Origin: Sphingopyxis sp. H050
Lineage (GTDB): Bacteria; Pseudomonadota; Alphaproteobacteria; Sphingomonadales; Sphingomonadaceae
Direction: 5' to 3'
NCBI RefSeq assembly: GCF_001468265.1
Contig: NZ_LNRZ01000004.1
Span: forward strand, 62,001 to 126,000
DNA: 64,000 nt
Position numbers and translations under genes: made by a program. Of this stretch, positions 4,530-54,630 are shown one piece after another (the stretch's first letter is position 1; each line of letters begins with the position of its first letter). The notes under the pieces were generated by a model. It searched no databases and was not told the DNA's origin. It worked only from the letters and a program-made list of their open reading frames with translations.

Positions 4530-4874
4530 TTATTCGAAGTCGCCACCGCCGCCAGCCGGGCTGCGCGGCGGCGCAGCAGCGGTGAGACGCAGTGCTTCGG
4601 CCGAGCGCGCGATCGAGCTGATTTCATCGGGCGTATCGTCATCGTCGACGACGACCTTTTGCAGCGTACCGACGAGCGCGTCCTGCAAATCTTTCGGGTG
4701 GACGGTCTGCTCGGCGATTTCGCGGAGCGCCACGACCGGGTTCTTGTCGCGGTCGCGATCGATGGTTAACTCCGAACCGCCCGAGATTTCGCGGGCGCGG
4801 TGCGCGGACATCAGGACCAGGTCGAAGCGGTTGGAAACTTTGTCGACGCAATCTTCGACGGTAACGCGGGCCAT
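4530..4874 (-). CDS. rpoZ: DNA-directed RNA polymerase omega subunit
   Basis: Small subunit that helps fold and assemble the beta-prime subunit of RNA polymerase. It has 114 residues. The N-terminus [20 protein letters not shown] and the following helices ([21 protein letters not shown]) are diagnostic. The C-terminal tail is acidic then Pro/Gly-rich ([19 protein letters not shown]), as in other alphaproteobacteria. AAGGA lies 7 bases before the ATG, so an in-frame ATG 13 codons upstream is rejected. It appears to be transcribed alone. Confidence 0.96.
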
Positions 4875-5007
4875 GTGAATTCCTTGTAGATAGGAGAGGC
4901 CAGCCAAAGGCATGGCGGCAAGCGCTGCGCGCTAGCAGGCGGCCGGGCGAATGTCAATCAAACCCCTGCCCTTGCAGGTCTCGCTAGCGACGGCCTATGA
5001 TCGACGT

Positions 5008-6204
5008 ATGACCGACGTCGACGTCCCCGCCGCCGAAACCGAGACCATCAAGGCGGAGGTTGCCGGGCACCGGCTGGAGGTCATCGTCGACGGCGACGAA
5101 CGGCTCGATCGCGTCCTCGCGCTGCTTGCCGGCGCAATTCGCAGCATCGACCTGATCATGTACATCTTTGAGGACGATGCCGCCGGCCGCCGCGTCCTCG
5201 ATGCGATGACGGCAGCCGCCAGGCGCGGCGTGCGCGTGCGCGCGGTGATCGACAGCTTCGGATCGGGCGACATTGCCGATGCCGTCTTCGATCCGCTGCG
5301 CGCTGAGGGCGGCACGGTGACCTTTTTCTCGCGGCGCTGGCGGTCGACCTACCTGATCCGCAATCACCAGAAGCTGTTGCTGATCGACGAAAGCATCGCG
5401 GTCACCGGCGGCTTCAACATCGCGGCGCCCTATCTGAGCCGGCAAGACGCGCATTGCTGGTTCGACCTCGCCTTTCTTGTCCGCGGCCCCTCGGTGGCGC
5501 GGATGATCGAATGGTTCGAGGAGATCCACGATTACACGCTCAACGACGACGGCAAGGTGCTGACGCTGCGCCGCCTGATCCGCGAATGGCCGGTTGATAC
5601 CGGCCCGGTCTCGTGGCTGGTCGGCGGCCCGACGCAGCGCCTGTCGCCCTGGGCGCGCGCCGTCCGCACCGATCTGGAGCATGCGCGCCAACTCGACATG
5701 GCGATCGCCTATTTCTCACCCGGCCAGGGCATGCTGCGGCGGCTGGGCCGCGTGGCGCGGCGCGGCCGCGCGCGCTTCGTTATGGCCGGCAAGTCGGACA
5801 ACGCCGCAACGATCGGCGCCTCGCGGCTGCTTTATGGCTATCTGCTACGCAAAGGGGCGACGATCTGGGAGTATCAGCCATGCAGGCTGCATATGAAACT
5901 GATCGTCATCGACGAAATCGTCTACATCGGCACCGCCAATTTCGACATGCGCAGCCTGTTCGTGAACGTCGAGTTGATGGTGCGGATCGCCGATGCGCCC
6001 TTTGCCGCGACAATGCGCGATTTCATCGCGCGGATGGCGCCCGATTGCGAGATGGTGACGAAAACGTCGCACAAGGCGCGCGCCAACTGGCTCACCCGGC
6101 TGCGCTGGACGCTCGCCTGGTTCGTTGTCGGCCTTGCTGATTACACCGTCACCCGGCGATTGAACTTCGGGCTCGGCGAAGTCGATCCCGAAACCGAGAT
6201 CTAG
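5008..6204 (+). CDS. Phospholipase D / cardiolipin synthase-like protein
   Basis: Encodes 398 residues with the two HxKxxxxD motifs of the phospholipase D superfamily: HQKLLLID near residue 120 followed by TGGFN, and HMKLIVID near 295 followed by GTANFDMRS. The two histidines form the phosphatidyl-enzyme catalytic pair. Such proteins act at the inner membrane, most often as cardiolipin synthases that join phospholipid head groups. There is no long N-terminal membrane region like that of ClsA, so it is nearer to the ClsB/short type. A C-terminal segment (LAWFVVGLADY) may associate with membrane. The ATG at 5008 is preferred to an upstream ATG at 4951. Its stop overlaps the stop of the convergent methyltransferase in the palindrome CTAG. 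Confidence 0.85.
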   Translation: MTDVDVPAAETETIKAEVAGHRLEVIVDGDERLDRVLALLAGAIRSIDLIMYIFEDDAAGRRVLDAMTAAARRGVRVRAVIDSFGSGDIADAVFDPLRAEGGTVTFFSRRWRSTYLIRNHQKLLLIDESIAVTGGFNIAAPYLSRQDAHCWFDLAFLVRGPSVARMIEWFEEIHDYTLNDDGKVLTLRRLIREWPVDTGPVSWLVGGPTQRLSPWARAVRTDLEHARQLDMAIAYFSPGQGMLRRLGRVARRGRARFVMAGKSDNAATIGASRLLYGYLLRKGATIWEYQPCRLHMKLIVIDEIVYIGTANFDMRSLFVNVELMVRIADAPFAATMRDFIARMAPDCEMVTKTSHKARANWLTRLRWTLAWFVVGLADYTVTRRLNFGLGEVDPETEI

Positions 6205-12372: not shown

Positions 12373-13308
12373 TTACTTCGCGGCGACGGGGCGAATGGGT
12401 ACGGGAATGTTGCAGATGTCGGCGCCGCCGGCCGGACGAATGAAGAAGGGGTCGCGGCGGTTGGCACGCGCGTCTGCATAGCGTCCGAAGCTGTTGCTGT
12501 CGGTCGAGAGATATTCGAATTTCGGCTGCTTCGCGACGGGCAGCTCGCTCGCCAGCCGGATCGACCTGATCGGGATGCGTTCGGCTTTGCTCTCATAGAA
12601 TCCCAGCGCGCCAGTTCCGCGCGGCAGGCTCGACAAATGCTCGATCCCGCTGATCACCCGGCCGACGAGCGCTATATTGCGATCGAGGTGCCGCGGCGCG
12701 TGACCGATCACGGTATAAAGCTCGGCGCCGGACCCGGTGTCCGGCGACATGTTACGGCCGACGCCGACCATGCCGTAGCAGTGCAGCGGCCAACGGCGCA
12801 CCGAATCGGGAGTACCTTCGGCCGCCACGGGCCATCCCTTTTCGAAAGAAGCATAGCGGCTGACGTCGCCGTTCGGGATCAGCAGCTTTGCAAAGCGCTG
12901 CCAGCCCGGCGCATCTCCCACTGTCACATAATCGTTCTCGGATATCGTCGCTAAGCCTTCGGGCAGCGGCTTCTTTTCGGTCGCATCGCCCCACTGGGCG
13001 ACATAATTGTCCTGCACCCGGTTGACGCTCGTCCCGTCCCACCAATGCGCGGCGGCGAGCTTGCGGATGTTGGCGATCCAGCCCTGGCTGAAAGGCGCGG
13101 GCATCAGCTGGATGACGACGCGGCGCGGCTTGCCCTTTGCATCGGGCGCAAGGTCCATGACGAGCAGGGCCGACGGCGCGATCGCGACCCAGTCGGCCGC
13201 GGGCGCCGCCGCCGCGATTTCGCCGGGCGACGGGATCGGAGCGGGCTCCTGGGCATGGACGGGAAGAAAAAGCGACGCCGCAGCCGCGGCCAGGAGCAGA
13301 TGTTTCAT
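12373..13308 (-). CDS. Secreted cyclophilin-type peptidyl-prolyl isomerase
   Basis: Encodes 311 residues. The signal peptide is MKHLLLAAAAASLFLPVHA. The cyclophilin core shows the series IQLMPAPFSQGWIANIRKL, then WWDGTSVNRV, then a QWGD segment, which match the usual 'APxxVxNF', 'YDGxxFHRV' and 'QGGD' blocks of the fold. Proteins of this type assist periplasmic protein folding. The ATG at 13308 supplies a clean signal peptide, although the same frame is open far upstream: the serine recombinase of the adjacent element reads in frame through the antisense of tRNA-Ser into this gene. Its own promoter must therefore lie in or near the tRNA gene or the 74 bases between them. Confidence 0.85.
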   Translation of the reverse strand: MKHLLLAAAAASLFLPVHAQEPAPIPSPGEIAAAAPAADWVAIAPSALLVMDLAPDAKGKPRRVVIQLMPAPFSQGWIANIRKLAAAHWWDGTSVNRVQDNYVAQWGDATEKKPLPEGLATISENDYVTVGDAPGWQRFAKLLIPNGDVSRYASFEKGWPVAAEGTPDSVRRWPLHCYGMVGVGRNMSPDTGSGAELYTVIGHAPRHLDRNIALVGRVISGIEHLSSLPRGTGALGFYESKAERIPIRSIRLASELPVAKQPKFEYLSTDSNSFGRYADARANRRDPFFIRPAGGADICNIPVPIRPVAAK

Positions 13309-15072
13309 GGGCGTCTGTCTGCCACGCCCAATCGGCTTGCGAAAGCCCTGCCAAGCGATTAGGGCGCCCGTTCCAAGCATGCGGAGCGGTGGCCGAGTGG
13401 TCGAAGGCGCTCGCCTGGAAAGTGAGTATGGGTCAAAAGCCCATCGAGGGTTCGAATCCCTCCCGCTCCGCCACTTCGGAACAACGATGGGCACTCCGCC
13501 CGCCGCCGTGGCTACGCCATTGGCGGCCAGCACGCGGAGCAGGTTGCTCTTCGATCCCATGATGCGGACCTCGCCGCGATCGACCTCGACCCGCTGCGCC
13601 AAGGCGCGAAGATGGTCGCGGCGATAGCCGCCGCCTTCCGTGCGGATGCGCCGCCGCGCCGTTGACGCGAACTTTCGCAACGTGGCCGGCGTGATGGCCT
13701 GCTGCGTCGAGTTGAGCAGGAGGGCCGAGGCCCGCTCGGCATCCGCCCGCGCCTGATCGCGAGTCGCCTTCAAGGCGACGATGCGATCCCTGAGCGCCGG
13801 ATCGTCCAAATCGGCGACGCCGCTTTCGATCGCGTCGTAGAGCCGTTTCAGGCGCAGCTCGGTCTCGGCGGATCGCCGGTTCAATTCCGCGATATGCTCG
13901 CGGCGCCGGTCGCTGCGCTCCTGTCGACGATCCAGAACCTCGGCTAGTACATCCTCCAGCCGGTCGGGATCGAGCAGCCGGTCGGCCAGATAGTTTGCGA
14001 CCAGATCGTCCAGCCGCTCCATCGAAACCGTCATGCCCTCGCAGGCGGTCGCGCCCTGCCGCGCCTTCATCGAACAGGTGTAATAGCGATAGCGCCCACC
14101 CTTCCCGGTGCGAATCGTCATCGCGCCGCCGCACTTCCCGCAATGGATCAGGCCCGTCAGCAGCGTCGGGCCACCGACGACCTGCGGATGGGCGACCTTC
14201 GGGTTGCGCGCCTTGAAATGTGCCTGCACCGCATCGAACGTGGCCTGGTCGATGATCGCCGGAACCTCGACCGCGATCACTTCCTCGGAGGGCTTCAATT
14301 CCTTGCTCTTGCCGCGCTTGTTGAACTCGTGGCGGCCGATATAGGTCGGCCGGGTCAGCATCCGATGAACCGTGCCGATGCCCCAGCGGCCGCCGTCGCG
14401 CGTGAAGATACGGCGCTCGTTGAGATGCTTGGTGATCGACTTCACGCCCATCGGGCCGGATGTGCCGTCGCCTTCCAGCGCCAGCTTGAACGCCAGCCGC
14501 ACCGTGTCGGCGTGGATCGGGTCGATCTCCAGCTTCTTCTTCATCTTCGCGCCGCGTTGCTCGGCATCGACCACGCGATATCCGATCGGCGGCAGCGAGC
14601 CGTTCCAGAAGCCTTGCCGGGCATTTTCCTTGAGCGCGCGAAGGACGTGCTTCGCATTCTCCTTCGACTGATATTCGTCGAACAGCGCCATGATCTGACG
14701 CATCATGACGTGCATCGGATCGTCGCCCATTTCCTGCGTGATCGACAACAGCTTGACGCCGTTCTTGGCGAGCTTGCGAACGTAGAACTCCAGTTCGAAG
14801 TGATCGCGGAAGAAGCGCGAGAAGCTGTGGACCACCACTACGTCGAACGACGCGGGCTTGCTGGTCCCGGCCTCGATCATGCGCTGGAACTCGGGCCGCC
14901 GGTCGTTCGTCGCCGATGCGCCGGCCTCGACGAAGGTATCGACCAGCTCCAGTCCCCGCGACAGGCAATAGGCTTCGCCCTGCTTGCGCTGATCGGGGAT
15001 CGACACGTCATGCTCGGCCTGCCGCGCCGTTGAAACGCGCAGGTAAAGGGCGGCGCGCAGCGGCACGGTCAT
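12373..15072 (-). CDS. Large serine recombinase, open reading frame fused through tRNA antisense to cyclophilin
   Basis: The recombinase part is the first 530 or so residues. The catalytic domain has YLRVSTARQ with nucleophile Ser14 and the R-x-F-x-R pattern SFSRFFRDHFE. Next come the recombinase domain (about 150-290, e.g. MGVKSITKHLNERRI) and a zinc ribbon with CGKCGG near 305 and two further Cys. A charged coiled-coil (about 380-450) completes the large-serine-recombinase layout used for integration and excision. No stop codon follows: the frame continues through the antisense of tRNA-Ser and ends at the cyclophilin stop, giving 899 codons. The element-encoded natural C-terminus was probably cut at the attachment site. 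GAGGAG precedes the ATG. Confidence 0.85.
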   Translation of the reverse strand: MTVPLRAALYLRVSTARQAEHDVSIPDQRKQGEAYCLSRGLELVDTFVEAGASATNDRRPEFQRMIEAGTSKPASFDVVVVHSFSRFFRDHFELEFYVRKLAKNGVKLLSITQEMGDDPMHVMMRQIMALFDEYQSKENAKHVLRALKENARQGFWNGSLPPIGYRVVDAEQRGAKMKKKLEIDPIHADTVRLAFKLALEGDGTSGPMGVKSITKHLNERRIFTRDGGRWGIGTVHRMLTRPTYIGRHEFNKRGKSKELKPSEEVIAVEVPAIIDQATFDAVQAHFKARNPKVAHPQVVGGPTLLTGLIHCGKCGGAMTIRTGKGGRYRYYTCSMKARQGATACEGMTVSMERLDDLVANYLADRLLDPDRLEDVLAEVLDRRQERSDRRREHIAELNRRSAETELRLKRLYDAIESGVADLDDPALRDRIVALKATRDQARADAERASALLLNSTQQAITPATLRKFASTARRRIRTEGGGYRRDHLRALAQRVEVDRGEVRIMGSKSNLLRVLAANGVATAAGGVPIVVPKWRSGRDSNPRWAFDPYSLSRRAPSTTRPPLRMLGTGALIAWQGFRKPIGRGRQTPMKHLLLAAAAASLFLPVHAQEPAPIPSPGEIAAAAPAADWVAIAPSALLVMDLAPDAKGKPRRVVIQLMPAPFSQGWIANIRKLAAAHWWDGTSVNRVQDNYVAQWGDATEKKPLPEGLATISENDYVTVGDAPGWQRFAKLLIPNGDVSRYASFEKGWPVAAEGTPDSVRRWPLHCYGMVGVGRNMSPDTGSGAELYTVIGHAPRHLDRNIALVGRVISGIEHLSSLPRGTGALGFYESKAERIPIRSIRLASELPVAKQPKFEYLSTDSNSFGRYADARANRRDPFFIRPAGGADICNIPVPIRPVAAK
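13383..13473 (+). tRNA. tRNA-Ser (anticodon GGA), element insertion target
   Basis: Class II tRNA of 91 bases with CCA: acceptor GGAGCGG/CCGCTCC, discriminator G, D-arm with GAGTGGTCGAAGGC, anticodon stem CTCGC/GTGAG around CTGGAAA, a long variable arm (TATGGGTC-AAAA-GCCCATC) and T-arm GAGGG-TTCGAAT-CCCTC. Anticodon GGA decodes UCC/UCU. The recombinase gene of the conjugative element abuts its 3' end, so this is the likely attachment locus. The gene is intact, with CCA encoded. Confidence 0.97.
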
Positions 15073-16483: not shown

Positions 16484-18538
16484 ATGAACGCTGTTACCGA
16501 AATCCTAGCCGCCGAGCCTGTGTCGGGCGTCGAGATTTTCGTGCCGCTCGCCAAGCTCAAGAAGTCCCCGCGCAATGCCCGCAAGGTGCCGCATGGGGAA
16601 GCCGCTATCGAGGCGCTGGCCGCTTCGATCCAGCACAAGGGGCTGATCCAGAACCTTGTCGTAGAGCCGGAAACCAAGGAGGACGGGACGCCGACCGGCA
16701 ACTATCTCGTTACCGCTGGTGAAGGCCGCAGGCTGGCGATGTTGCTGCGCGCCAAGCGCAAGCAGATCAAGAAGTCGGAAGTCGTGCGCTGCTGGCTCGA
16801 TACCGCCAACGATCCGTCCGAAATCAGTCTGGACGAGAACGTGACCCGGACCCCTATGCACCCCGCCGACCAGTTCGAGCGGTTCCGCGAACTGTCCGAA
16901 AGCAAGGGCTATGGCGTGGAAGAAATCGGCGCGCGGTTTGGCGTGTCGGCTGGCGTGGTGAAGCAGCGGCTTCGCCTTGGCGCTGTCTCGCCCAAGCTGT
17001 TGCAGGTCTATCGGGAGGACGGTCTTACGCTGGATCAGCTTATGGCCTTCGCTATCACCGAGGACCATGACCGGCAGGAGCAGGTTTTCGCCAACCTGCA
17101 TCACAACCGCGAACCGTGGATCATCCGGCGCGACATGACCGCAAGCAATGTCGTGGCAGAGGACCGGCGCGCGATATTCGTCGGAGCCGAAGCTTACGCG
17201 GAAGCGGGCGGCAACATCATCCGCGACCTGTTCAGCGAGGATCGTGGCGGGTTCTTCGAGGATGCGGGTTTGCTCGATACGCTCGCCGTCGAGAAATTGC
17301 GCGAAGTTGCCGAGCGCGTTCAGGCCGAGGGCTGGAAATGGGCCGAGGCGCATATCGACTATCCCCACGCCCACGGGATGCGGCGCTTCTATCCGCAGAC
17401 CGTCGCCCTGTCCGACGAGGAGGAGGCGCGGGTCGATGAGGCATGGGCCGAGTACGACCAGATCGTCGACGGCTATGACTCGCTGGATGAAATGCCCGAG
17501 GATTTGGCGGCGAAAGCCCGTGCGCTGGACGCCGAAATGGACGCCCTGTCCGCCAAGCGTTCCGCCTACGACCCCAATGTGATCGCCAATGGCGGTGCGT
17601 TCGTCGTACTTCAACATGACGGCACGGTCAGGGTCGAGCGCGGTTTCGTGCGGGCCGAGGACGAGGCGTTGGCGGACCCCCAGCCGGAGCCGGAAGAAGG
17701 CGATGCGACCGAGCCGCAGATGGGCGACGACGAGCAGCCGGAGGACGGCGACGAGGACGTGCAGGATGCCGACGAGGACGAAGACCCGGGCAAGCCGATT
17801 TCCGACAGCCTCACCCGTGACCTGTCCGCCTATCGGACGCTGGCGCTTCGCGTGGCGCTGGCCGAGCAGCCCGATATGGCCCTGATCGCGCTGACCCACA
17901 CGCTGACCGCGCAACTTTTCTACAGCTATGCGGAGGCCGGTTGCCTTGAGGTTCGTCCGACCGTGACCCCCTTGGGGAGCCATGCGGACGGGATCGAGGA
18001 CACGCCATTGGCGGCACGGGCGAGCGAGCAGCACGAGGCATGGGCCGAGCGGATGCCGCGCGACGTGGCGGACCTGTGGGGCTTCATCGTCGGGCTGGAC
18101 GAGGCGAAGCGGATTGCGTTGCTGGCGCATTGCGCGGCTCGCACCGTCAACGCTCTGCGGTTGCCGTGGGACCGCAAGCCCCGGTCGCTGCAAACGGCGG
18201 ACAGGCTGGCGGACGCGCTGGCGCTGGACGTGGCGAAGGACTGGACGCCGACCGTGGACAGCTACCTTGGCCGCGTCACCAAGGCGCATATCGTGGACGC
18301 TGTGACCGAAGGCGTGTCCGAGGACGCCGCTCGCCGCATCGCGGACATGAAGAAGCCGGACATGGCGCAAGCCGCCGAGCAGCTTCTTTCCGGGACCGGC
18401 TGGCTTCCTGCCGTGCTGCGGACGCCCGAACCGGAGGGAGCGGACCCCGCGCCTGCGGAGCCGGAGGACGCGGATAGCGTGGAGCAGCCGCCCGAAGTGG
18501 AGGACAGCGAAGCATCCTTTGCTGTCGCCGCCGAATAG
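16484..18538 (+). CDS. ParB/KorB-like DNA-binding protein
   Basis: Encodes 684 residues. The N-terminal ParB/Srx domain (about 20-120) has VPLAKLKKSPRNARK and TAGEGRRLAMLLRAKRK; it is followed by the HTH (about 140-180, EEIGARFGVSAGVVKQRLRLG). The centre (about 400-430) is acidic (EPEEGDATEP, EDGDEDVQDADEDED), and the C-terminal half is helical without a recognised domain. ParB-like proteins of this length are typical of plasmids and conjugative elements and may serve in partition or as global repressors (KorB); no partner ParA gene is visible here. AGGAG is 7 bases upstream of the ATG. Two strong hairpins follow. Confidence 0.82.
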   Translation: MNAVTEILAAEPVSGVEIFVPLAKLKKSPRNARKVPHGEAAIEALAASIQHKGLIQNLVVEPETKEDGTPTGNYLVTAGEGRRLAMLLRAKRKQIKKSEVVRCWLDTANDPSEISLDENVTRTPMHPADQFERFRELSESKGYGVEEIGARFGVSAGVVKQRLRLGAVSPKLLQVYREDGLTLDQLMAFAITEDHDRQEQVFANLHHNREPWIIRRDMTASNVVAEDRRAIFVGAEAYAEAGGNIIRDLFSEDRGGFFEDAGLLDTLAVEKLREVAERVQAEGWKWAEAHIDYPHAHGMRRFYPQTVALSDEEEARVDEAWAEYDQIVDGYDSLDEMPEDLAAKARALDAEMDALSAKRSAYDPNVIANGGAFVVLQHDGTVRVERGFVRAEDEALADPQPEPEEGDATEPQMGDDEQPEDGDEDVQDADEDEDPGKPISDSLTRDLSAYRTLALRVALAEQPDMALIALTHTLTAQLFYSYAEAGCLEVRPTVTPLGSHADGIEDTPLAARASEQHEAWAERMPRDVADLWGFIVGLDEAKRIALLAHCAARTVNALRLPWDRKPRSLQTADRLADALALDVAKDWTPTVDSYLGRVTKAHIVDAVTEGVSEDAARRIADMKKPDMAQAAEQLLSGTGWLPAVLRTPEPEGADPAPAEPEDADSVEQPPEVEDSEASFAVAAE

Positions 18539-18547
18539 CGGCACGGG

Positions 18548-18581
18548 GCCGGGACCGCGCGAGCGGTCCCGGCTTCTTTTT
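18548..18581 (+). terminator. Strong rho-independent terminator
   Basis: An 11-bp stem (GCCGGGACCGC and its complement) with the loop GCGA is followed by TTCTTTTT. It begins 10 bases after the stop of the ParB-like gene. Confidence 0.9.
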
Positions 18582-18598
18582 GTGACCGGCGAAAAATC

Positions 18599-18629
18599 GC
18601 GGCCGCGCCCGTTGGGGCGCGGCCGCTTT
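18599..18629 (+). terminator. Second hairpin, tandem to the terminator
   Basis: A 12-bp perfect stem (GCGGCCGCGCCC and its complement) with the loop GTTG is followed by TTTCCC. It lies 18 bases after the first terminator and probably acts as a backup or a 3'-end stabiliser. Confidence 0.55.
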
Positions 18630-18638
18630 CCCATTGCA

Positions 18639-19206
18639 CAGGCGCCCCGCTCCGAGGACGCGGGGCGGCGTGCTGATAGCGGATCGACCGTTGCATTTCT
18701 GGAGGTGGGTTCGTCGAGTAAAGTTGCAGACCCACGCGGCGGGACCGCTCGGCGACTATGATGCGGGCGATGAGCGACGGTCTATGCCAGCCTCGCGCGG
18801 GATCTCGGCGAACACATAGGGAGCGTCAGCGGCGTTCGCTCTCCTGTAGTCTTTGCGAAGGATTACTTGCGAGGTGAGCCTGGCGCGGTCCAGCAAAGAA
18901 GCGAATGCCCTCCGACTGACGATGCCCATCATAGCCACGGCGTAGAATTTCCGGCTCGGCGACAACCGCGCGGCCTCTCGATTGGCTTGATCTAACCGGG
19001 GCCGGCTTCGCCTTGATCGGCCTGGCGCAACGGCGCCGCGCGGCTTTTTTCCGCCGCCTTCGGCTTTGCATCGCGAAACAAAAAAGCCGCGCGTCGCCAT
19101 CCTCCGCTGTGCTTCGGCCGCAAGCGGTGCGCGTCCGATCATCCCCGCTTCACCGATCGCCATCGAGGCCGCGGCGGTCGTGGCCCGAAGCAAAAGGAAC
19201 TTCGAC
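18639..19206. other. Region without a recognised gene, with a long inverted repeat
   Basis: No supported coding sequence is visible. The inverted repeat 19037-19050 / 19080-19093 (arms CGCGCGGCTTTTTT and complement) has a 29-base loop. The poly-T arm makes it resemble a transcription attenuator or a terminator read from either side. A ribosome binding site AAGGA (19193-19198) for the DUF736 gene lies at the end. Confidence 0.5.
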
Positions 19207-19506
19207 ATGGCCACCATCGGCACCTTCACCCAGGCGGGCAACGGCTCCTTCAGCGGAACCATCAAGACGCTCACCCTCAACGCAAAGGCCACCCTCCGTC
19301 CGATCGAGAAGGAGAGCGATAAGGCCCCCGATTTTCGTCTCGTGGTCGGCACGGTCGAGTGCGGCGCGGGATGGAAGAAGACCAGCCGCGAGAACCGCGA
19401 CTACATCTCGGTCAAGCTGGACGATCCGACCTTCGCGGCTCCGATCTACGCCACTCTGGTCGAAACCGAGACCCCCGGCGAATACGCTCTCATCTGGTCG
19501 CGCTGA
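19207..19506 (+). CDS. DUF736 protein (copy 1)
   Basis: Encodes 99 residues forming one DUF736 domain: [21 protein letters not shown], then [33 protein letters not shown] and the closing [16 protein letters not shown]. The family is common in plasmids and conjugative elements of alphaproteobacteria and is of unknown function; a second, diverged copy lies downstream in this element. AAGGA lies 8 bases before the ATG. Confidence 0.85.
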
Positions 19507-19515
19507 CCTCGACAC

Positions 19516-19544
19516 GGCGCCCCGCTCCCTCTGAGCGGGGCGCC
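19516..19544 (+). terminator. Hairpin after DUF736
   Basis: A perfect 12-bp stem (GGCGCCCCGCTC and its complement) with the loop CCTCT. The tail TTCGTGTG is only weakly T-rich, so it may work by stabilising the RNA end rather than as a strong terminator. Confidence 0.6.
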
Positions 19545-19793
19545 TTCGTGTGTTGGTTCGCCAGTTCATAATATGGACGGGCCATCGGCCCGGCATGTTG
19601 TGAGGTGCTTGGGGCGCCGCCCCCAGCGCCCTTCGGAGCGGCTTCCGCCCAGCTTCCTTCACGCGCGAGCGCGTTCCGTGCAGCCGGTTCCCCGCGAAGC
19701 CGCCCACTCCGGTTGCACCCCCGGTCTCGCCGACGGGCAGGGTTTCAGCGCGGCGTTCCGCTGCGCGGAAACCCAAGCCCAAGGAGTTCAGCC

Positions 19794-20633
19794 ATGTGTC
19801 ATCAGCTTGCCACCCGGTTCGGCCGCAACGCCCATCAGATCAGCGGCCGTGAGGCGCTCGACAACGAGGCGCTGTATCGGCACGTGCCGTCCATCTTCGC
19901 CCGCGAGGCGCACGACAGCCGTTCGGAGCGCTATGTCTATGTTCCGACCATCGACATCGTGGAGGGGCTGCGCCGGGAAGGATGGTTCCCTTTCTTCGCG
20001 GTTCAGTCGGTTCCGCGCGACGGCAGCCGCCACGGCCACGCCAAGCACATGCTGCGCCTGCGCCGGGACGACGGTATCGGCAAGCCCGAGGCGGCCGAAG
20101 TCATCATCGTCAACAGCCATGACGGGACCAGCGCCTATCAGATGTTCGCCGGGATGCTGCGGTTCGTCTGCACCAATAGCATGATCGCGGGCGAGCGGTT
20201 CGAGGAGGTCCGCGTGCCGCACAAGGGCAACATCCAGCACGATATAATCGAGGGTGTTTACACCGTGGCGGAGGACTTCCCCCGGCTGATCGACGCCAGC
20301 GAGACCATGAAGGAGGTTCGGCTTTCCGAGGAAGAGCGCCGCTTACTCGGCGAGGTCAGCCTGGTCGCGCGCTACGGAGAGGACGAAAGCCCGTTGCGGC
20401 CCGAGCAGATCATCGAGCCGCGCCGCCGCGAGGACATGGGTGACAGCCTGTGGACCACGTTCAACGTCATTCAGGAGAATGTCGTTCGGGGCGGATTACA
20501 GGGCCGCAAGCGCAATGCCGAGGGCCGTATCCGCCGCAGCCAGACCCGCGCCATCAACGGCATCGACCAGAACGTGACGCTCAATCGCGCGCTTTGGACA
20601 CTGGCCGAAGGGATGCAGCGCCTCAAAGCCTAA
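19794..20633 (+). CDS. DUF932 protein
   Basis: Encodes 279 residues matching the DUF932 family of plasmid, phage and conjugative element proteins. Signs are RYVYVPTIDIVEGLRREGWFPF, then RHGHAKHMLRLRR, a SHDGTSAYQMFAGMLRFVCTNSM core and a C-terminal NVIQENVVRGGL. The biochemical role is unknown; the family co-occurs with conjugative transfer genes. AAGGAG lies 7 bases upstream of the ATG. Four tandem GC-rich palindromes follow its stop. Confidence 0.82.
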   Translation: MCHQLATRFGRNAHQISGREALDNEALYRHVPSIFAREAHDSRSERYVYVPTIDIVEGLRREGWFPFFAVQSVPRDGSRHGHAKHMLRLRRDDGIGKPEAAEVIIVNSHDGTSAYQMFAGMLRFVCTNSMIAGERFEEVRVPHKGNIQHDIIEGVYTVAEDFPRLIDASETMKEVRLSEEERRLLGEVSLVARYGEDESPLRPEQIIEPRRREDMGDSLWTTFNVIQENVVRGGLQGRKRNAEGRIRRSQTRAINGIDQNVTLNRALWTLAEGMQRLKA

Positions 20634-20641
20634 CTATCGCC

Positions 20642-20772
20642 GCCGCAGGGCCGAGCTCGGCCCTGCGGCTTCGCCATTTCCGCGCCGATCCGCTGCGGCG
20701 GATCGGCGGCGGCCGCGCGTCCCCAAGGTCCGCGCGGCCGCAAAGGTTCGCTCGCCGGGCTGCCGCCCGGCT
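20642..20772. repeat. Run of four tandem GC-rich palindromes
   Basis: Directly after DUF932 come: a perfect 28-bp palindrome (20642-20669; half-site GCCGCAGGGCCGAG); then a 10-bp stem 20684-20693/20698-20707 with a 4-base loop; then a 10-bp stem 20710-20719/20731-20740; then a 7-bp stem near 20755-20761/20766-20772. All could form stable hairpins. The first may end DUF932 transcripts; the others are unexplained. Confidence 0.6.
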
Positions 20773-21149
20773 CGCTTTGGGTAGTCATTTCGGCAGTGCT
20801 GTTCTATGAAGTCCTCGGGCCGCTACGCGGCGGCCTGGGGTGTGGAAACCCCGGATTAACCGGTTCGGCGCCGGCCGTGACGGCGTCGCGATCCTTGACC
20901 ATGCGGTCGGGGAGCCTGCGACGTATGTCCAGGTGCCTCGGTGCTAAAGGTCGTAGGAACCGAGTTAATCCGGTTTTCCAACTCCCCGATCACGGGTTCA
21001 GGAGCTGTTTGCGGGGGCGCACCGCAAATCAGCAGCCCTGTGAATTGTCGAGGCATTGCAGATTCCGCGCGCAGTCATGCAGAACGAGCGCATCGAAAAT
21101 GCTCCGACATTGGCTTATTGGTTAACGCGGGCGGGAAGTCGGGGGCATC
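20773..21149. other. Intergenic region upstream of the QseM-like gene
   Basis: No supported gene. GGATTAACCGG near 20853 and GTTAATCCGG near 20964 look like partly matching sites about 110 bases apart. Two short candidate frames have no ribosome binding site. The right end should hold the promoter of the DUF2285 gene; its SD is probably the GGGGG just before 21150. Confidence 0.4.
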
Positions 21150-21422
21150 ATGGTCAAGATGGGATTCGATGAATGCGCGCCTGATTCGCAGCAGCTCACC
21201 AGCTATGACGAGGGTCATTTGGCGGACTATCTGCGCTTGTTAGATGCTAACGCAGATGGAACCGATTGGCGCGAGGCAGCGGGACTGATTTTCGGCATCG
21301 ACGCCGCCGTGGAGCCGGATCGTGCGAAGACGATGCATGACACTCATCTAGCTCGCGCGCGGTGGATAACAGAGGTGGGATATGCTCATCTGCTCGGCTG
21401 TCAGCCCCCGCTAAACCGTTAA
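21150..21422 (+). CDS. DUF2285 protein, QseM-like antiactivator
   Basis: Encodes 90 residues. The core YDEGHLADYLRLLDANADGTDWREAAGLIFGID followed by KTMHDTHLARARWITEVGYAHLL matches small DUF2285 proteins. In the Mesorhizobium symbiosis island ICEMlSymR7A, the antiactivator QseM belongs to this family and binds both TraR and FseA to block excision and transfer. The gene is 147 bases upstream of the fseA-like gene, with a palindromic site between them. Naming it QseM-like is an inference from family and context. No luxI/traR pair is visible in the window, so the upstream quorum-sensing input is missing or lies elsewhere. Confidence 0.6.
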   Translation: MVKMGFDECAPDSQQLTSYDEGHLADYLRLLDANADGTDWREAAGLIFGIDAAVEPDRAKTMHDTHLARARWITEVGYAHLLGCQPPLNR

Positions 21423-21426
21423 AATT

Positions 21427-21449
21427 GAACTCCAATTTGGATCGAGTTC
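21427..21449. promoter_or_regulatory. Inverted repeat upstream of fseA, candidate operator
   Basis: GAACTC and GAGTTC form a dyad with an 11-base spacer, 5 bases after the QseM-like stop and about 120 bases before the fseA-like start. A regulator of the fseA promoter could bind here; it does not resemble a TraR tra box. Confidence 0.25.
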
Positions 21450-21569
21450 GGTTGTTATGGTCCCGCCCGCGCGACATGGTTGTGCGCGATCTTCGCTCTA
21501 TCCTGTAGGTAAGGCGGCGACGATGTTGCGTTCTCCGAAATCCGCGCAGAGCGCGGCGGGGAGGATGCA

Positions 21570-22353
21570 ATGCCGACGCCACCTGGGCGTCGCCAGCGGC
21601 GCGCCGGCGGACTGTCCGACGCCCTCGGGCGCGCCGATTTAGCAGCTGAGTTCCTACGCCGAAACCGCACCTATCGCGCCGAACACACGCAGATGCAGCA
21701 GCGCATCGCGAGCGGCGCCGTCGCGAAGAACGCCGCCGAGACGGCGTTCGCGCGGCGCTGGGGGTTGTCCTTTCGCCACGGCGCCGGATGAGCTTTTAGA
21801 GTCGGTCATCTGGCGCCCGGAGCTGACCGCCGTCACGGTCATTCTCGACGCCGCGCCGGAGGGATTTGAGACCGCCGCCCCGGTCCCTCCGCGCGCGCTG
21901 GGCGCGCTGCTCGCCGACCTGGCCGGGATCGACGGCCGCCATGTCGTCGTCGCCGACGCGGCCGGCGAGCATCGGCTGTGGCTGCGCGATCCTGCACCGG
22001 GCAAGCCGCTCGCCGCGATCATTCCGCTCGACAAGGACTTCATCACCCGGATCGCGAGCCTGCTGCGCTTTCACCGGCGTCTGCTCGGCCGGACAGCCGG
22101 GCCGCTGCCGCGCGGCTGGCCGCTGACGGCCTATCGGCTCGCACGGCTCGACCTGATGCTCCGCGCGATAGACCTCCGTCAGAACGGCGCAACCTACCGC
22201 GAAATCGCGACAGCGCTGGGACGCGATGACGCTGCCCGTCTTTCCGCGAGCGACTGGAAAATGTCGGCCTCGCGGTCATTCGTCGTGCGCCTGGTCCGCG
22301 ACGGCATCGCCATGATGAATGGCGACTATCGCAAGCTGCTCCGCATTCGTTGA
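21570..22353 (+). CDS. fseA: FseA-like excision activator, two frames joined by a +1 frameshift
   Basis: The N-terminal frame (73 codons, stop at 21789-21791) carries a DUF6499-type domain: RADLAAEFLRRNRTYRAEH and RRWGLSF. The C-terminal frame, shifted +1, carries a DUF2285 domain: ESVIWRPELTAVTVIL, then LTAYRLARLDLMLRAIDLR and ATYREIATALG. In ICEMlSymR7A the products of msi172 and msi171 are fused by +1 slippage of tRNA-Phe from UUU to UUC to make FseA, the activator of rdfS. Here frame 0 has UCC UUU C at 21768-21774, and shifting at UUU-C reads S-F-A-T-A-P-D-E without a gap. The C-terminal frame lacks ATG, GTG and TTG starts for about 355 bases, so it can hardly be translated by itself. The fused protein would have about 260 residues. 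GGGGAGG precedes the ATG. Confidence 0.82.
21771..21774 (+). promoter_or_regulatory. Programmed +1 ribosomal frameshift site
   Basis: Frame-0 codon TTT is followed by C, so tRNA-Phe can slip one base forward from UUU to UUC; the next frame-0 codon is CGC. The frame-0 stop (TGA) is five codons further on. This matches the mechanism reported for FseA of ICEMlSymR7A. Confidence 0.75.
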
Positions 22354-22459
22354 TCGTCCTAAACGGCCCCTCGAAATTGGATTATAGGACTTTCACGCAA
22401 TATAAGGTCGCGCAGTTTCCGGCGCGGCGGCGTTGCGGCAGCAAAGTAACGACCTAACA

Positions 22460-22741
22460 TCAAGAACGAGCATTGAGAGCGGTGGCTATTAGGGGCAGGT
22501 AGCGACTAACTTGATCGCGGTCGCTTTGCTTCTCTTTGGCGCTGAGATCATGGTAGTCCGTCGCCGCTTGCCGATCCCATCGTTCCACCAGTTCGGCAGG
22601 CAAGACGAGCGAGCCGTCTGCTTGCCTGACGCCCTTTGAATGCATGTATCGCTGCCAATGTGACCAGCGCTCATGCTCGATCGCAGCCAGTTCGTCCATG
22701 AGACCGTACAAGACGGCATCGACGTCGATCGGATCGCCCAT
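22460..22741 (-). CDS. RyR-domain-like small protein, third gene of the TIR-caspase operon
   Basis: Encodes 93 residues. The pattern IEHERWSHWQRYMHSKG, then ELVERWDRQ, then LSAKEKQSDRDQVSRYLPLI resembles the small RyR-type domain ('EHERW...K..DR..V') seen in phages and in bacterial conflict systems, where it is predicted to bind nucleotide-derived ligands. It starts only 3 bases after the caspase-like stop, so the genes are translationally coupled. Possible roles include ligand sensing, buffering or regulation of the protease; none is shown. Two other frames overlap it but have no coding character. Confidence 0.55.
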   Translation of the reverse strand: MGDPIDVDAVLYGLMDELAAIEHERWSHWQRYMHSKGVRQADGSLVLPAELVERWDRQAATDYHDLSAKEKQSDRDQVSRYLPLIATALNARS

Positions 22742-22744
22742 CGG

Positions 22745-23734
22745 TTAGATGAGCCCGTCAGCGACAAGCTGCCGATAATGCTGTCCGAGAACCGTCAACT
22801 CGCAGGACTTGCTGTTCATCGCTGCGTGCCACATGTGGGCTTCCCCGACCGGACGAACCAAATTTACCTTCACATAGCGCTGTAACACCGCAAAGACCGC
22901 GTTCTTTTGGGGGTCTGGTGGCGGTAGATTTGGGTCAGCCTTCTGTTCCTCCGTGCGTTCCGGCTCGTAGCTGGGATCTAGGGGAAAATCATAGTCCGGG
23001 CGGGGGAAATATGTCGCCAGCACTTGCAAATCCGCAAGCGGGATCGGTGCTGCAGCCTTACGCAATGACACGAAGGTCTTCACATTGGTCTTGAACATAG
23101 GGCGTTGTGCCCAAGGGCCAAGAGATTGATCGATATGCGCATAGACGCTGCCGGGCGTTACGTCGCCAAGTAGATTTGCAGCCGCACCGCCGAGTGCATC
23201 GACGAATAGGCTCGTGAAGACACCGGCCCCACCTCCGGGAACTTCCATCGCATATTGCTCTGCGGTTGAAGCCGTCAGAATGGTCATGCCTTCCTTCACT
23301 TCGGCAATCATCTGCTCCGGCCGCGTGCCTGCAACGCCACTGTGGCAACTATCGAGAATGACGATCTTGTTCTTTGCGGGAGACTTCCCTGCGAGAGTCA
23401 TCAACTCGGAGAGCGAGAGACCATCGTCGCCAGACTTGCATTCCGTGCCACACAGAAAACCGCCAGTATCTTCAATGTAGCCATGACCGGCAAAATAGAA
23501 GAGCGCGATTTCCGAATCGTCAGCAAATAGTTCTCTAACCGCGTCCTTGAGCCGCCCCTTTTCGACTCGATCCGTCGCGCTGGTTCCAGTCAGCAACATC
23601 GGCGTGGCGAAATTGACAGTGCCGTCGGCATGCCGTTCGAGCACGCTTTTCACCGAGTGAGCGTCATTTACGCAACCACTCAGGCCGCCAATGTGGTCGT
23701 AGTGGTCGATACCGACAATGAGAGCCTTACGCAC
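22745..23734 (-). CDS. Caspase-like (C14) protease, type IV Thoeris-like effector
   Basis: Encodes 329 residues from a GTG. The caspase/metacaspase fold is clear: [22 protein letters not shown] at the N-terminus, the catalytic His in FYFAGHGY near residue 85 and the catalytic Cys in [10 protein letters not shown] near 128. The C-terminal third is Pro-rich then carries a compact tail ([18 protein letters not shown]) that could be a ligand- or partner-binding module. In type IV Thoeris, a TIR protein makes the signal N7-cADPR upon phage infection and a caspase-like protease responds by degrading cellular proteins. The TIR-like gene ends 12 bases upstream, and the SD (GAGGTG) overlaps its stop region. 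Confidence 0.8.
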
Positions 23735-23746
23735 AAATGCACCTCA

Positions 23747-24118
23747 TCAAAGCGAGTCGATGAAGCCGCTGATATTCGTGTCGCTCCAGACGTACGTGGT
23801 CACGCCCGCCAGACTGGTCCGGTCATTGGAGTAGGCGTAGATGCCTCGAATAGGCTTACCCTCTTCCTGAGCGCACTGAATCTCCCATTTTTGGCCGCTC
23901 GAAGTCAGCGAGTTTTTGCTTACGAGGACGATCACACCGTCTGAACGACGGATGCGAGTGCGCACCTTCGTCTTCCAATCATTGTCGTAAGCCTGCTTCA
24001 CCGACATGTCGATGAACTCATACGGAGCGCGGGGATGAAGCGACTGCCCCTTCAAGAAATCCCGCTGGCGTTCGTCTTCGATTGCGAACGCGATGAACAC
24101 CACTTTCTTGTCAGCCAT
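23747..24118 (-). CDS. TIR-like protein (ThsB/MTH538 type)
   Basis: Encodes 123 residues. The N-terminal strand KKVVFIAFAIEDE, the YEFIDMSVKQAYDNDW segment and the RSDGVIVLVSKNSLTSS segment, followed by KWEIQCAQEEGKPI with the likely catalytic Glu of KWEI, match the TIR-like family of Thoeris ThsB. Such enzymes turn NAD+ into cyclic ADP-ribose isomers when phage is sensed. I chose the ATG at 24118 (MADKKVV); two more in-frame ATGs upstream would add 16 and 25 residues. It is the first gene of the operon and faces away from rdfS. Confidence 0.78.
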   Translation of the reverse strand: MADKKVVFIAFAIEDERQRDFLKGQSLHPRAPYEFIDMSVKQAYDNDWKTKVRTRIRRSDGVIVLVSKNSLTSSGQKWEIQCAQEEGKPIRGIYAYSNDRTSLAGVTTYVWSDTNISGFIDSL

Positions 24119-24333
24119 CTCTGCCCCCAAGTGATTCTGGATAAGCCAGTAAACCTGTGATTGCATATAGCGGCTGGGACGCAAGGAAGACATAGTTCAT
24201 TCCGCTTCCGGCTGAGGCCGATCGCCCTCGCGGGGTGGTCGCGTCCGTGCAGCCGCACATCTTCATACCCCACCCGGCCGCCTCAGTTCTGACAATTACG
24301 CCTCCTGCCGCCACCGCCCGCAGGAGCAGTCAC
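24119..24333. other. Divergent promoter region between the TIR operon and rdfS
   Basis: Should hold the promoter of the immune operon on the minus strand and the FseA-dependent promoter of rdfS on the plus strand. It includes CTGACA near 24285 as a possible -35 for rdfS, and the SD hairpin at its right end. Confidence 0.4.
24302..24326 (+). promoter_or_regulatory. Hairpin hiding the rdfS ribosome binding site
   Basis: CTCCTGC (24302-24308) pairs perfectly with GCAGGAG (24320-24326) across an 11-base loop. The second arm contains the AGGAG that serves the rdfS start 7 bases later. The mRNA should fold so that initiation is reduced. Confidence 0.55.
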
Positions 24334-24600
24334 TTGTCCGATACGCCTCCCAATCTGCCGCCCCGCTTCCTGCGCACGCCGGAAGCCGCGCGGTTTCTCG
24401 GCCTCTCCGGCCGGACCCTCGAAAAGCACCGCTATTTCGGGACCGGCCCTGCCTACCGCCGGATCGGCGGGCGGGTGGTCTATTCGGTCGATGACCTGCG
24501 CGCCTGGGCCGACATCGGCATCAAGCACTCGACCTCCGATCCGGGGCAGGACGACCTCATGCCGCGTGCGGATTCGGCCATCGCTCGGAGCCGGCGATGA
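24334..24600 (+). CDS. rdfS: RdfS-like excisionase / MerR-type helix-turn-helix protein
   Basis: Encodes 88 residues from TTG. The helix-turn-helix LRTPEAARFLGLSGRTLEKHRYFGTGPAYRRIGGRVVYSVDDLRAW is the AlpA/Xis-type winged helix with the usual wing residues. RdfS of ICEMlSymR7A is a recombination directionality factor of this type, is activated by FseA and leads into traF, and the order here (rdfS, DUF2840, traF) is the same. Use of TTG and the sequestered SD should keep the level low. In this element the integrase is a serine recombinase, so RdfS may be a transcriptional switch for transfer genes rather than, or as well as, an excisionase. Its stop overlaps the next ATG. Confidence 0.7.
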   Translation: MSDTPPNLPPRFLRTPEAARFLGLSGRTLEKHRYFGTGPAYRRIGGRVVYSVDDLRAWADIGIKHSTSDPGQDDLMPRADSAIARSRR

Positions 24601-51207: not shown

Positions 51208-51245
51208 GGCCAGTCACGATCGCGGGGACTGACTGGGGGAATATT

Positions 51246-52643
51246 ATGACGACCGTGCCGCCGGCACCTATCGAATATCAGCTCATTGGCCTCGCTGAAG
51301 ACGGCGGCATCGGGAACCTACTGGCGGGTCTCGATCAGAAGCAGGGGCGTGTCCGCCTTCAAGCGCTCATATCCGAATGGCTACGAATGGAGAATCTCGT
51401 CGTTCTGACGGGATCGGGCACGTCGGTTTCCGTCGGCGGTAAGACGATGGCCAATCTCGAAACGGCTGTATTCGCCACGATCCAGGCGCTGCCCGACATC
51501 CCCGCCTCGGTCGCTGCTATCATCGAAGCCCGCAAGAACGCTGTCCTTCTCGCCGCCTTCGACGATGATGACCCGATCGGTTTCGAGGCATGGCTTTCGT
51601 TCGTCGCCAATGCTCTGGTCGTCGCGGAGTCTACGGGCGGACCATTTTCCGCCGTGACGTGGCCCAGTACGCCGGCGCCCAGCGTCGCCGATCTGCGTTG
51701 GCTCGTCGATCGCCTTCGCATGGCGATTTTCGCCGAGTGCGCGCTTTCGCTCCCTGATACGGGGCTGGCCGCGTCCGCTGATGGCATCGTGCCGCATCTT
51801 GCATTTCTATCCAAACTCGTGGCTCGCGATAGCAACCTCGGACGCACCCATCTCTTCACGCTCAATTACGACACGCTTTTCGAGCAGGCATTGGAGCTGC
51901 TCGGCGTCCAGTATTTTGACGGTTTCACCGGCCGCGCAGCCGGCCGGTTCGACCCTTCCGTTTATGGTTTGGACATCTACTATCCGGGCGAGGTGGCGGA
52001 GGGCCGTGTACGGCGCTTCGACAAGTTCCTGCATTTCTACAAGCTCCACGGCTCGATCCACTGGTTCGAGCAGGGCACCGAGATGCGCGCGCGTCATCCT
52101 GATCTGACCCCTTTTCAGACCTACGCCGCCATGACGGCCGAGCAGAAAGCCGCGTCGCTTCTGTCTCTGGTCGGAGGGACGCCTTCGGTCGGGATTCTAC
52201 CGACCGCGAACAAATTCGCTCAGACGCTTGCGATGCCCTACGCTCACCTCTTCCGGTCCTTTCAGGTGCGGCTCGGCATCCCCCAGACCTTCCTCCTCGT
52301 GCTGGGCTATGGCTTCGGCGACGATCATGTCAGCCGGATCATCGAGAATGCGCTCATGAATCCGTCGCTTGTGATGCTGGTAGTCGAACCAAATCCGAAC
52401 AGTCCGGTGATCGCACGCATCCGGCGATACAAGGATCTCGGTAAGCGCGCCTTCGTCCTATGTCCGACGACGGATGCCTTCTCAGCAACACCATTCAAGC
52501 TCGCGACCTTCGACGACTTTGCGCGAACGGTGATGCCCGACGTGCAGTGGCTCGACGACTTCCTTCGCTTGCGCCGCTTCGAAAAGCAGATCGCTTCGTC
52601 CGCAACATCAGCCGGAGCGGACACGGAGGGCGCGGATGGATAA
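51246..52643 (+). CDS. SIR2-like NAD-hydrolysing defence protein
   Basis: Encodes 465 residues. The NAD-binding fold begins with VVLTGSGTSVS near 52, followed by FTLNYDTLFE near 203 (the invariant Asn) and LHGSIHW near 267 (catalytic His 268). These are the residues of SIR2 NADases that deplete NAD+ in phage-infected cells. GGGGGA lies upstream of the ATG. It overlaps herA by 8 bases, so the pair matches the Sir2-HerA anti-phage system, where HerA and Sir2 form a large complex. Confidence 0.88.
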   Translation: MTTVPPAPIEYQLIGLAEDGGIGNLLAGLDQKQGRVRLQALISEWLRMENLVVLTGSGTSVSVGGKTMANLETAVFATIQALPDIPASVAAIIEARKNAVLLAAFDDDDPIGFEAWLSFVANALVVAESTGGPFSAVTWPSTPAPSVADLRWLVDRLRMAIFAECALSLPDTGLAASADGIVPHLAFLSKLVARDSNLGRTHLFTLNYDTLFEQALELLGVQYFDGFTGRAAGRFDPSVYGLDIYYPGEVAEGRVRRFDKFLHFYKLHGSIHWFEQGTEMRARHPDLTPFQTYAAMTAEQKAASLLSLVGGTPSVGILPTANKFAQTLAMPYAHLFRSFQVRLGIPQTFLLVLGYGFGDDHVSRIIENALMNPSLVMLVVEPNPNSPVIARIRRYKDLGKRAFVLCPTTDAFSATPFKLATFDDFARTVMPDVQWLDDFLRLRRFEKQIASSATSAGADTEGADG

Positions 52644-54630
52644 TCCGCGCCTCGTCGGGCACATCGTGTCGGTTCAAGGCTTCCGAGTGAAGGTCGAATT
52701 GCTGCCCGAAACTCGGTCGGCGTTACGCGCCACGCTAGACGGCGTGCAGGCGGCCATCGCAATCAACGCCTATCTGACCTTCTCGCTCGGTGCGGGGGAA
52801 ACGGTCATCGGCATCATCACCGATCTGGAAGCTCGCGAGACCTTCGATCCCGGTAGCGGGGACGATCTAAACCTCGAACTGATGAAACCACGCCGCGTTG
52901 CCAGCGTACAGCTGCTGGGCACGATCGAGCACAAGGACGAGGAGCCTACCTTCAGTCCAGGCATCTCGGTGCTGCCAACACTCGACACTCCCGCGGAGAT
53001 CGGATCGCCGGACATCCTTCGCGCGGTGTTCGAGATACCACCGCGGCGCAACAAGCCAGAGGACTATGACGCGAAGGATTTCGATTGCGATCTGAAGATC
53101 GGATTCCCGACCGGCCAAGACCGCAACGTCGTGCGGGCCTCCTATAACGACCTGTTCTCGCGGCCGCTCGCGATCGTGGGCAATACCGGCTCGGGCAAAT
53201 CCTTCTCGGTGTCGAGCCTGATCCAGAAGGCGATGGCTGCGCTCGATGGCGCGGCCGAGGAGCCGCACGTCTTCATCCTCGACATCAATGGCGAGTATGC
53301 CAAGGCCTTCCCGACGGCTGAAGCGGCGCAACGCTTGCCGGATCGCATCTACCTCAATGGCAAGGAGTTCAGCCTTCCGCTCTGGTTTCTGAACGCCGAA
53401 GAAATCTGTGCGTGGCTGAGCGCGTCGGAGCAAACGCAGGAGCCCGTGCTGAAAGACTGGTGGGCGATTGCCAAGGGCGGCAGTGCCACCGCCGCCGCCA
53501 GCATGGGAGCGTTTCAGAATGGCATGAGCGCGCTCGACCAGCTCTTGAGCGAACTGACGAAGATCAAGAAGAAGGCAGCCGGCTCCTATTGCGATGCCGT
53601 GGTCGGCCACCTCGCCGATACAGACATTGATACAGACCCGTTCGCTGGCCTGTTTACCGCTCATAGGTCAGCTAACGATTTCAACACCGAGGTCATGAAC
53701 AATCAGGCCGCCATAGCTGCGGAGGCGGAGAAGCTGAAAGACGCGATTCGCGCCAAGATCGTCGGTGGTAGCGGCACGGCGGAGGCCGGTGCACGCACTG
53801 CGGACTCTCCGTTGCCGATCGCCCGCGCAACCCTGACCGATCCATCGCTTATCAATCGGGCCGTATCCAAGGAGGATACGTTTCGCGTCGATGCCCACCT
53901 GACGACGTTGAAGCTGCGGCTGAAAACCCGCCTCGACGACAAGCGATGGCGCGCCTTCCTCAACTATGAGGAGACCGATACGAAGATCGAGAAGCTGTCC
54001 TCATGGTTCGCACGCTTCGGGCTTGGTGCTGCAACGGGACCGAAAGTCTCGGTGCTCGACCTGTCAATGTTGAGCAACGAGGTTCTTCCCTATGCTTGCG
54101 CGGTGATCGGGCGGGTGTTGCTGGAGGCGCGTGAGCGCCTGCCCGCAGCCTCGCGCTATAAGCATCCGTGGGTGCTTGTTCTCGAAGAGGCGCACAACTA
54201 TGCCCGCCCGGCCCGCTCAGACGAGGATCGCGGTCATCGCCTAGCGCGGTTGACATACGAGCGCATCGCCAAAGAGGGGCGCAAATTCGGCCTTTCACTC
54301 ATCATCGCCAGCCAGCGGCCGAGCGAGATCAGCCAGACGATCATCAGCCAGTGCGCCAACTTTATCAGCCATCGCCTACAAAATCCTGACGATATCGACC
54401 ATTTCCGGCGCATCATTCCAATGCAGGCGAGACGGCTGCTCGATCAGGTGACTATCCTGTCGTCAGGCGAGGCAATCGTATTCGGTAGCGCCTTTCATAT
54501 TCCGACGCGGGTTCAATTCGACCGGCCTCAACCCGGCCCTTATAGTCAGACGGCCGCGCCCTATCATGAGTGGCGCAAGGAACAGAATCCGTTCCCGCTG
54601 TCGCAGGTCATCGATGCGTGGGGTGCCTGA
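52636..54630 (+). CDS. HerA-like ATPase of the Sir2-HerA defence system
   Basis: Encodes 664 residues. The HerA-barrel N-terminus (GHIVSVQGFRVKVELL) leads into a DUF87/FtsK-like ATPase: Walker A GNTGSGKS near 181 and Walker B VLVLEEAHN near 513. The arginine-finger region SQRPSEISQTIISQCANFI and the C-terminal AIVFGSAFHIPTRVQFDRPQPG are typical of HerA. It acts as a hexameric motor with Sir2. Confidence 0.9.
   Translation: MDNPRLVGHIVSVQGFRVKVELLPETRSALRATLDGVQAAIAINAYLTFSLGAGETVIGIITDLEARETFDPGSGDDLNLELMKPRRVASVQLLGTIEHKDEEPTFSPGISVLPTLDTPAEIGSPDILRAVFEIPPRRNKPEDYDAKDFDCDLKIGFPTGQDRNVVRASYNDLFSRPLAIVGNTGSGKSFSVSSLIQKAMAALDGAAEEPHVFILDINGEYAKAFPTAEAAQRLPDRIYLNGKEFSLPLWFLNAEEICAWLSASEQTQEPVLKDWWAIAKGGSATAAASMGAFQNGMSALDQLLSELTKIKKKAAGSYCDAVVGHLADTDIDTDPFAGLFTAHRSANDFNTEVMNNQAAIAAEAEKLKDAIRAKIVGGSGTAEAGARTADSPLPIARATLTDPSLINRAVSKEDTFRVDAHLTTLKLRLKTRLDDKRWRAFLNYEETDTKIEKLSSWFARFGLGAATGPKVSVLDLSMLSNEVLPYACAVIGRVLLEARERLPAASRYKHPWVLVLEEAHNYARPARSDEDRGHRLARLTYERIAKEGRKFGLSLIIASQRPSEISQTIISQCANFISHRLQNPDDIDHFRRIIPMQARRLLDQVTILSSGEAIVFGSAFHIPTRVQFDRPQPGPYSQTAAPYHEWRKEQNPFPLSQVIDAWGA

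Follow-up and report, generated by a model that had tools for sequence, protein, structure and literature searches.

A RyR-like gene tied to TIR and caspase-like genes in bacteria and found alone in phages: a candidate signal binder or eraser in a type IV Thoeris-like operon

Why should a small gene related to ryanodine receptor (RyR) domains lie directly behind a TIR gene and a caspase-like gene, the pair that defines type IV Thoeris? The question is raised by an operon of Sphingopyxis sp. H050, located within a stretch of 64,000 nucleotides (contig NZ_LNRZ01000004.1, positions 62,001 to 126,000) that we here call the window and whose first letter is position 1 of all window coordinates. We found that the RyR-like gene is part of the TIR–caspase system in one clade and no local oddity, and that relatives of it occur alone in phages. 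The best reading, to which we give an even chance of being right, is that of a type IV Thoeris-like abortive-infection operon having its own built-in signal binder or eraser, with the phage copies serving as counter-defence.

The operon and its RyR-like protein

The three genes of the operon are as follows.

23747..24118, minus strand: TIR-domain protein (ThsB-like), putative signal synthase; 123 residues, 124 codons with the stop; E79
22745..23734, minus strand: caspase-like protease; 329 residues, GTG start, AGHG and DSCHSG motifs; H84/C130
22460..22741, minus strand: RyR-like small protein, proposed signal binder or eraser; 93 residues; H23, W26, W29, W55 and D74

The first-pass annotation had described three back-to-back minus-strand genes, and all of them were found exactly where it had placed them, with intergenic gaps of 12 bases (TIR/caspase) and 3 bases (caspase/RyR-like). 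A longer open reading frame (ORF) for the TIR protein is possible from an ATG at 24193, but the start was set at 24118 because the alignment of relatives begins there. Chance ORFs were ruled out, since the three genes are conserved over several phyla. In Pfam, the TIR protein matched ThsB_TIR (E=1.2e-8, 35.7 bits versus a cut-off of 21.2) and the caspase-like protein matched Peptidase_C14 (E=1.6e-17, 64.4 bits versus 21.4). The PADLOC models for ThsB (1.4e-8) and for the caspase also recognized the respective proteins, and no PADLOC model matched the RyR-like protein. With NCBIfam, an EACC1-associated caspase model stayed below its cut-off on the caspase-like protein (96.3 versus 140 bits), and the RyR-like protein gave two weak sugar transaminase matches, far below cut-off. 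E79 of the TIR protein, which we take to be the NAD-cleaving glutamate, did not vary in any of the 73 rows compared (the window and 72 of the 73 listed relatives), and the caspase-like protein retained its His/Cys dyad, a caspase fold in the structure model and a conserved C-terminal part (about residues 230–329). The proposed type IV Thoeris-like core of TIR and caspase is hence backed by protein families, catalytic residues, the caspase-fold model and conservation of the operon.

Type IV Thoeris is reportedly the work of Rousset et al. in 2025. As described in PMC12847820, it consists of a TIR protein and a caspase-like protease that use N7-cyclic ADP-ribose (N7-cADPR) as signal. The window operon shares with it the adjoining TIR and caspase-like genes, with the TIR Glu and the caspase His and Cys kept, a likeness at the level of families and residues, whereas the RyR-like gene is an addition.

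RyR (PF02026) was the only Pfam match of the RyR-like protein of the window, with E=0.028 and 15.1 bits, under the curated cut-off of 27.4. When nine further family members were scanned, including one from the phage Ma-LMM01, eight scored 12.3 to 23.3 bits and one (L070) gave no match; RyR was the best Pfam family in eight of the 10 members, ranking fourth in L029. The family has the same motif order as PF02026, comprising the animal ryanodine receptor repeats and bacterial RyR proteins, but all 10 members fell under its gathering cut-off. Using hhalign against a target profile of seven bacterial RyR members and the phage enzyme RyDEP, in one comparison rather than a database search, we obtained a probability of 94.2 and an E-value of 1.1e-7 (90.6 and 1.5e-7 in a global run). 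As judged from these profiles, the RyR-like family, whose members are mostly annotated as 'hypothetical protein', is a remote homologue of RyR domains.

RyDEP is, according to a 2026 preprint (PMC13232231), a phage RyR enzyme destroying cyclic ADP-ribose signals; it binds and cleaves 2'/3'cADPR through an H75/D117 dyad and W78, the latter bracing the adenine, and H100 contacts a phosphate. Two of its homologues are described there as sponges, with residues common to sponges and enzyme. By motif alignment, the counterparts of H75, D117 and W78 are H23, D74 and W26 of the RyR-like protein. H23 and W26 were kept in 57 of 57 host rows and 23 of 23 phage rows, and D74 in all 57 host rows and 22 of the 23 phage rows; R57 occupies the position of H100, with R or K in 39 of 56 rows, and Q54 of RyDEP was not alignable. 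With RyDEP and the phage RyR sponges, the family shares two motifs, H-x-x-W and Y/F-x-x-L-x3-E-x3-D, which contain the catalytic H and D, as well as remote profile homology. It differs in being shorter, in lying under the Pfam RyR cut-off, in having R, K or other residues in place of H100 and in occurring not only in phages but also within a defence operon of bacteria.

The RyR-like gene in bacteria and in phages

Genome contigs were scanned with the caspase alignment, and the best 80 of at least 486 confirmed relatives were kept as the nearest loci. The RyR-like gene was found directly 3' of the caspase gene in 46 of these 80 loci, and a TIR gene preceded the caspase in 74. The first-pass annotation had tied its proposal to the occurrence of the same triplet elsewhere; the RyR-like gene proved far from absent among homologous loci, but with 34 of the 80 lacking it, it is not universal. 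The 80 loci are not all independent, with identical caspases in L029–L032 and again in L036 and L037; the contig of L035 is 100% identical to positions 16784–23512 of the window, and those of L094 and L102 stop less than 300 bases past the caspase. The gap between the caspase and RyR-like genes (n=46) was at most 20 bases in 45 cases, with a median of 1 and 19 overlaps; these values rest on RyR start codons assigned by a rule favouring an ATG close to the end of the caspase gene.

When mapped on a tree of 93 caspases, the presence of RyR required nine changes, versus 29.5 for shuffled labels, with none of 500 shuffles as low (L021 and L022 being scored as positive despite another gene order). 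RyR was present in 45 rows of a starred 49-row clade (100/99; bootstrap not fully settled) that spans Pseudomonadota, Actinomycetota and Acidobacteriota, and two of the four negative rows, L054 and L061, were also without TIR. For L072 and L089, RyR was present and no TIR gene was found upstream. Protein distances over 48 loci correlated with r 0.67 for caspase and RyR, a value equalled or exceeded by none of 2000 permutations, with r 0.59 for caspase and TIR and r 0.40 for RyR and TIR.

Such tracking of caspase distances by RyR distances is what a positive partner would give, that is, a co-receptor or delivery subunit binding the signal or the caspase and helping to activate the protease. This main rival would also accommodate the tight operon, with RyR start codons abutting or overlapping the caspase stop, and the retention of RyR with caspase in L072 and L089. 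We nevertheless consider it unlikely, since 34 close caspase loci do without RyR and since phages carry the RyR-like gene alone, although a protein promoting host death should be harmful to them.

In five type IV-like loci without RyR (L023, L028, L066, L068 and L091), the caspase is followed by a second TIR gene. Sensors often vary among operons, and this variation in accessory genes, to which the S8 peptidase of L021 may be added, would suit a RyR-like protein that recognizes an infection cue or bridges the TIR protein to a phage protein, with its pocket made for another nucleotide. It is the residues matching the RyDEP pocket, however, that are among the most conserved in host and phage rows, with the loop at 42–52 varying among phage copies, and we find this second alternative improbable. 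A second TIR–caspase pair was also seen on the opposite strand close to the TIR–caspase–RyR operon in L055 and L077.

Searching from the RyR side avoids the bias of choosing the nearest caspases. Among plasmid records, 21 matched the RyR-like protein and all 21 were linked to a caspase, with RyR directly behind it in 18, in the same cluster in two (L021 and L022) and beside a remnant in one (L017); loosening the search to E 5 added no more than three records, all with E between 2 and 4. In L021 (4610–9228) the order is TIR, caspase, S8 peptidase, an unknown gene, TIR and RyR, while L022 (3357–7383) has two TIR genes divergent from RyR, caspase and metallophosphoesterase genes. In L017, from Sphingobium cloacae (4783–5267), only the last 65 residues of the caspase remain, close to an IS1380 element, and RyR is whole. 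With 11 of the 21 records typed as conjugative, and with the window copy also on a conjugative element, the gene could be pictured as an anti-competitor device by which mobile elements blunt a resident Thoeris in a new host and so survive there, its linkage to TIR and caspase being mere packaging; the RyDEP family is indeed stated to act on signals of other cells (PMC13232231). We hold this to be quite improbable, because every plasmid copy was tied to a caspase, if in one case a remnant, whereas a gene acting freely against Thoeris should also turn up by itself.

Within genomes of the order of the window, RyR was found in three of 396, each time as TIR–caspase–RyR and including that of the window itself, and within those of its class in one of 385, again that of the window. 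These rates are lower bounds, since the searches score part of the candidates; the same-genus genome G024 carries the triad (L003) yet was not among the matches of the order search.

Scanning of IMG/VR gave 26 RyR-like loci, and in 25 of them no caspase or TIR gene of these families was found near RyR within the available contig DNA; the exception, L124, has TIR, caspase and RyR together. The upstream side could not be judged in L122 and L126, starting less than 260 bases before RyR, or in L147, although it could in its near-copy L146. L135–L137 are copies of one another, with the same layout and RyR, and the RyR of L128 is identical to that of L129. Two RyR-like copies lie about 4.6 kb apart on the single viral contig of L128. 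Upon comparison of 20 proteins from 19 IMG/VR loci with PHROGs, telling phage genes were identified in five loci: terminase (L122 and L146), tail sheath (L123), portal, directly behind RyR, and major head protein (L125), and endolysin (L127). Less telling were an exonuclease (L138), GroEL (L139 and L140), a helicase (L142) and an HNH endonuclease (L131). Nine proteins, from L126, L128, L130, L132, L133, L135, L141, L144 and L145, had no match in PHROGs, and hence not every contig was confirmed as phage. Among named phages, a RyR-like protein is encoded by the Microcystis phages Ma-LMM01 (gp44) and MaMV and by their kin; weaker matches came from Moorella phage MTATph1 and from a 'Bacteriophage sp.' (MW202753). 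A further, unverified 'Bacteriophage sp.' record (L111, MT835687) holds the whole TIR–caspase–RyR operon and is probably a bacterial or plasmid piece.

Insertion site and neighbouring genes

The operon lies in an inserted cassette between two genes of the element.

22356..24231, no strand: inserted cassette of about 1.88 kb; three relatives align with the window up to about 22355 and again from about 24232
21570..22353, plus strand: fseA-like gene for an excision activator, made up of two ORFs that differ in frame
24334..24600, plus strand: rdfS-like HTH_17 gene

We presume that fseA and rdfS are the proper names for the flanking genes; the first ORF of the former (21570–21791) is PF20109 and the second, ending at 22353, has DUF7012 and RovC_DNA-bd. 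The guanine–cytosine content of the cassette is 0.558 versus 0.677 and 0.700 in its flanks, and the approximately 100 bases upstream of rdfS (24232–24333) align with the relatives and were left in place. The spacing between fseA and rdfS is about 115–135 bases in G025, G217 and G198, and at eight further fseA loci from seven genomes rdfS lies within about 225 bases and the cassette was not found. The site therefore looks like a one-off landing place, with nothing inserted there at any of the 11 other fseA loci examined. That the operon splits fseA from rdfS, as first proposed, is borne out, and it does so as a low-GC insertion, but its placement at the centre of an excision switch is not, as we saw no sign of functional coupling to excision.

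Elsewhere in the window, a SIR2-like gene overlaps a HerA/DUF87 ATPase gene (51225–54630, plus strand), apparently a further anti-phage pair of this contig. At 12373–15072 (minus strand), a serine recombinase ORF continues in frame as a cyclophilin-type tail, and tRNA-Ser lies at 13383–13473 on the opposite strand; the element may have its integration junction here.

Proposed role and meaning

In the mechanism that we propose for the Thoeris-like operon, phage infection would make the TIR protein convert NAD+ to a cyclic ADP-ribose signal, which would turn on the caspase-like protease and lead to degradation of cell proteins. The RyR-like protein would bind this signal in a pocket of H23, W26 and D74 and either hold it, as a sponge, or hydrolyse it, thereby setting a threshold and clearing stray signal, while phages would use the same family alone as counter-defence. 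The signal identity, the signal binding and the role as a brake are what we infer. The linkage in bacteria together with the lone copies in phages fits a protein acting on the TIR signal, and since a phage-borne inhibitor is plausible and a phage-borne activator is not, the same chemistry within the operon would amount to a brake or threshold. Sequence does not tell a sponge from a hydrolase, because, according to the preprint, sponges and enzyme share these residues. The initial idea of a RyR-like gene that acts on the signal is strengthened by the bacterial linkage, the lone phage copies, the conserved His, Trp and Asp and the RyDEP preprint. An eraser would recall, by analogy, the ring nucleases of type III CRISPR, which likewise remove the signal in nucleotide-signalling defence but are unrelated proteins acting on a different signal.

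TIR–caspase systems and phage RyR inhibitors of signalling are already known. Our literature search, by titles and starts of abstracts, found no host-encoded RyR gene in TIR–caspase operons; the phage half may already have been published, for this or another family, considering the title of Chen 2026 on a phage sponge versus TIR–caspase signalling. Taken more widely, and tentatively, with somewhat less than an even chance, the data point to a large type IV Thoeris clade with a dedicated eraser or sponge from an as yet unnamed RyR-like family, and to phages deploying the same family against TIR–caspase immunity. If so, this would to our knowledge be the first case of a Thoeris system with a signal terminator of its own, and one small fold would be both brake and weapon. 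Being conserved and having lone phage relatives, the RyR-like gene is a direct test case for defence systems carrying their own off switch, with Ma-LMM01 and MaMV as named candidates for counter-defence against TIR–caspase immunity, and it would place nucleotide handling by domains of the ryanodine receptor type within bacterial defence.
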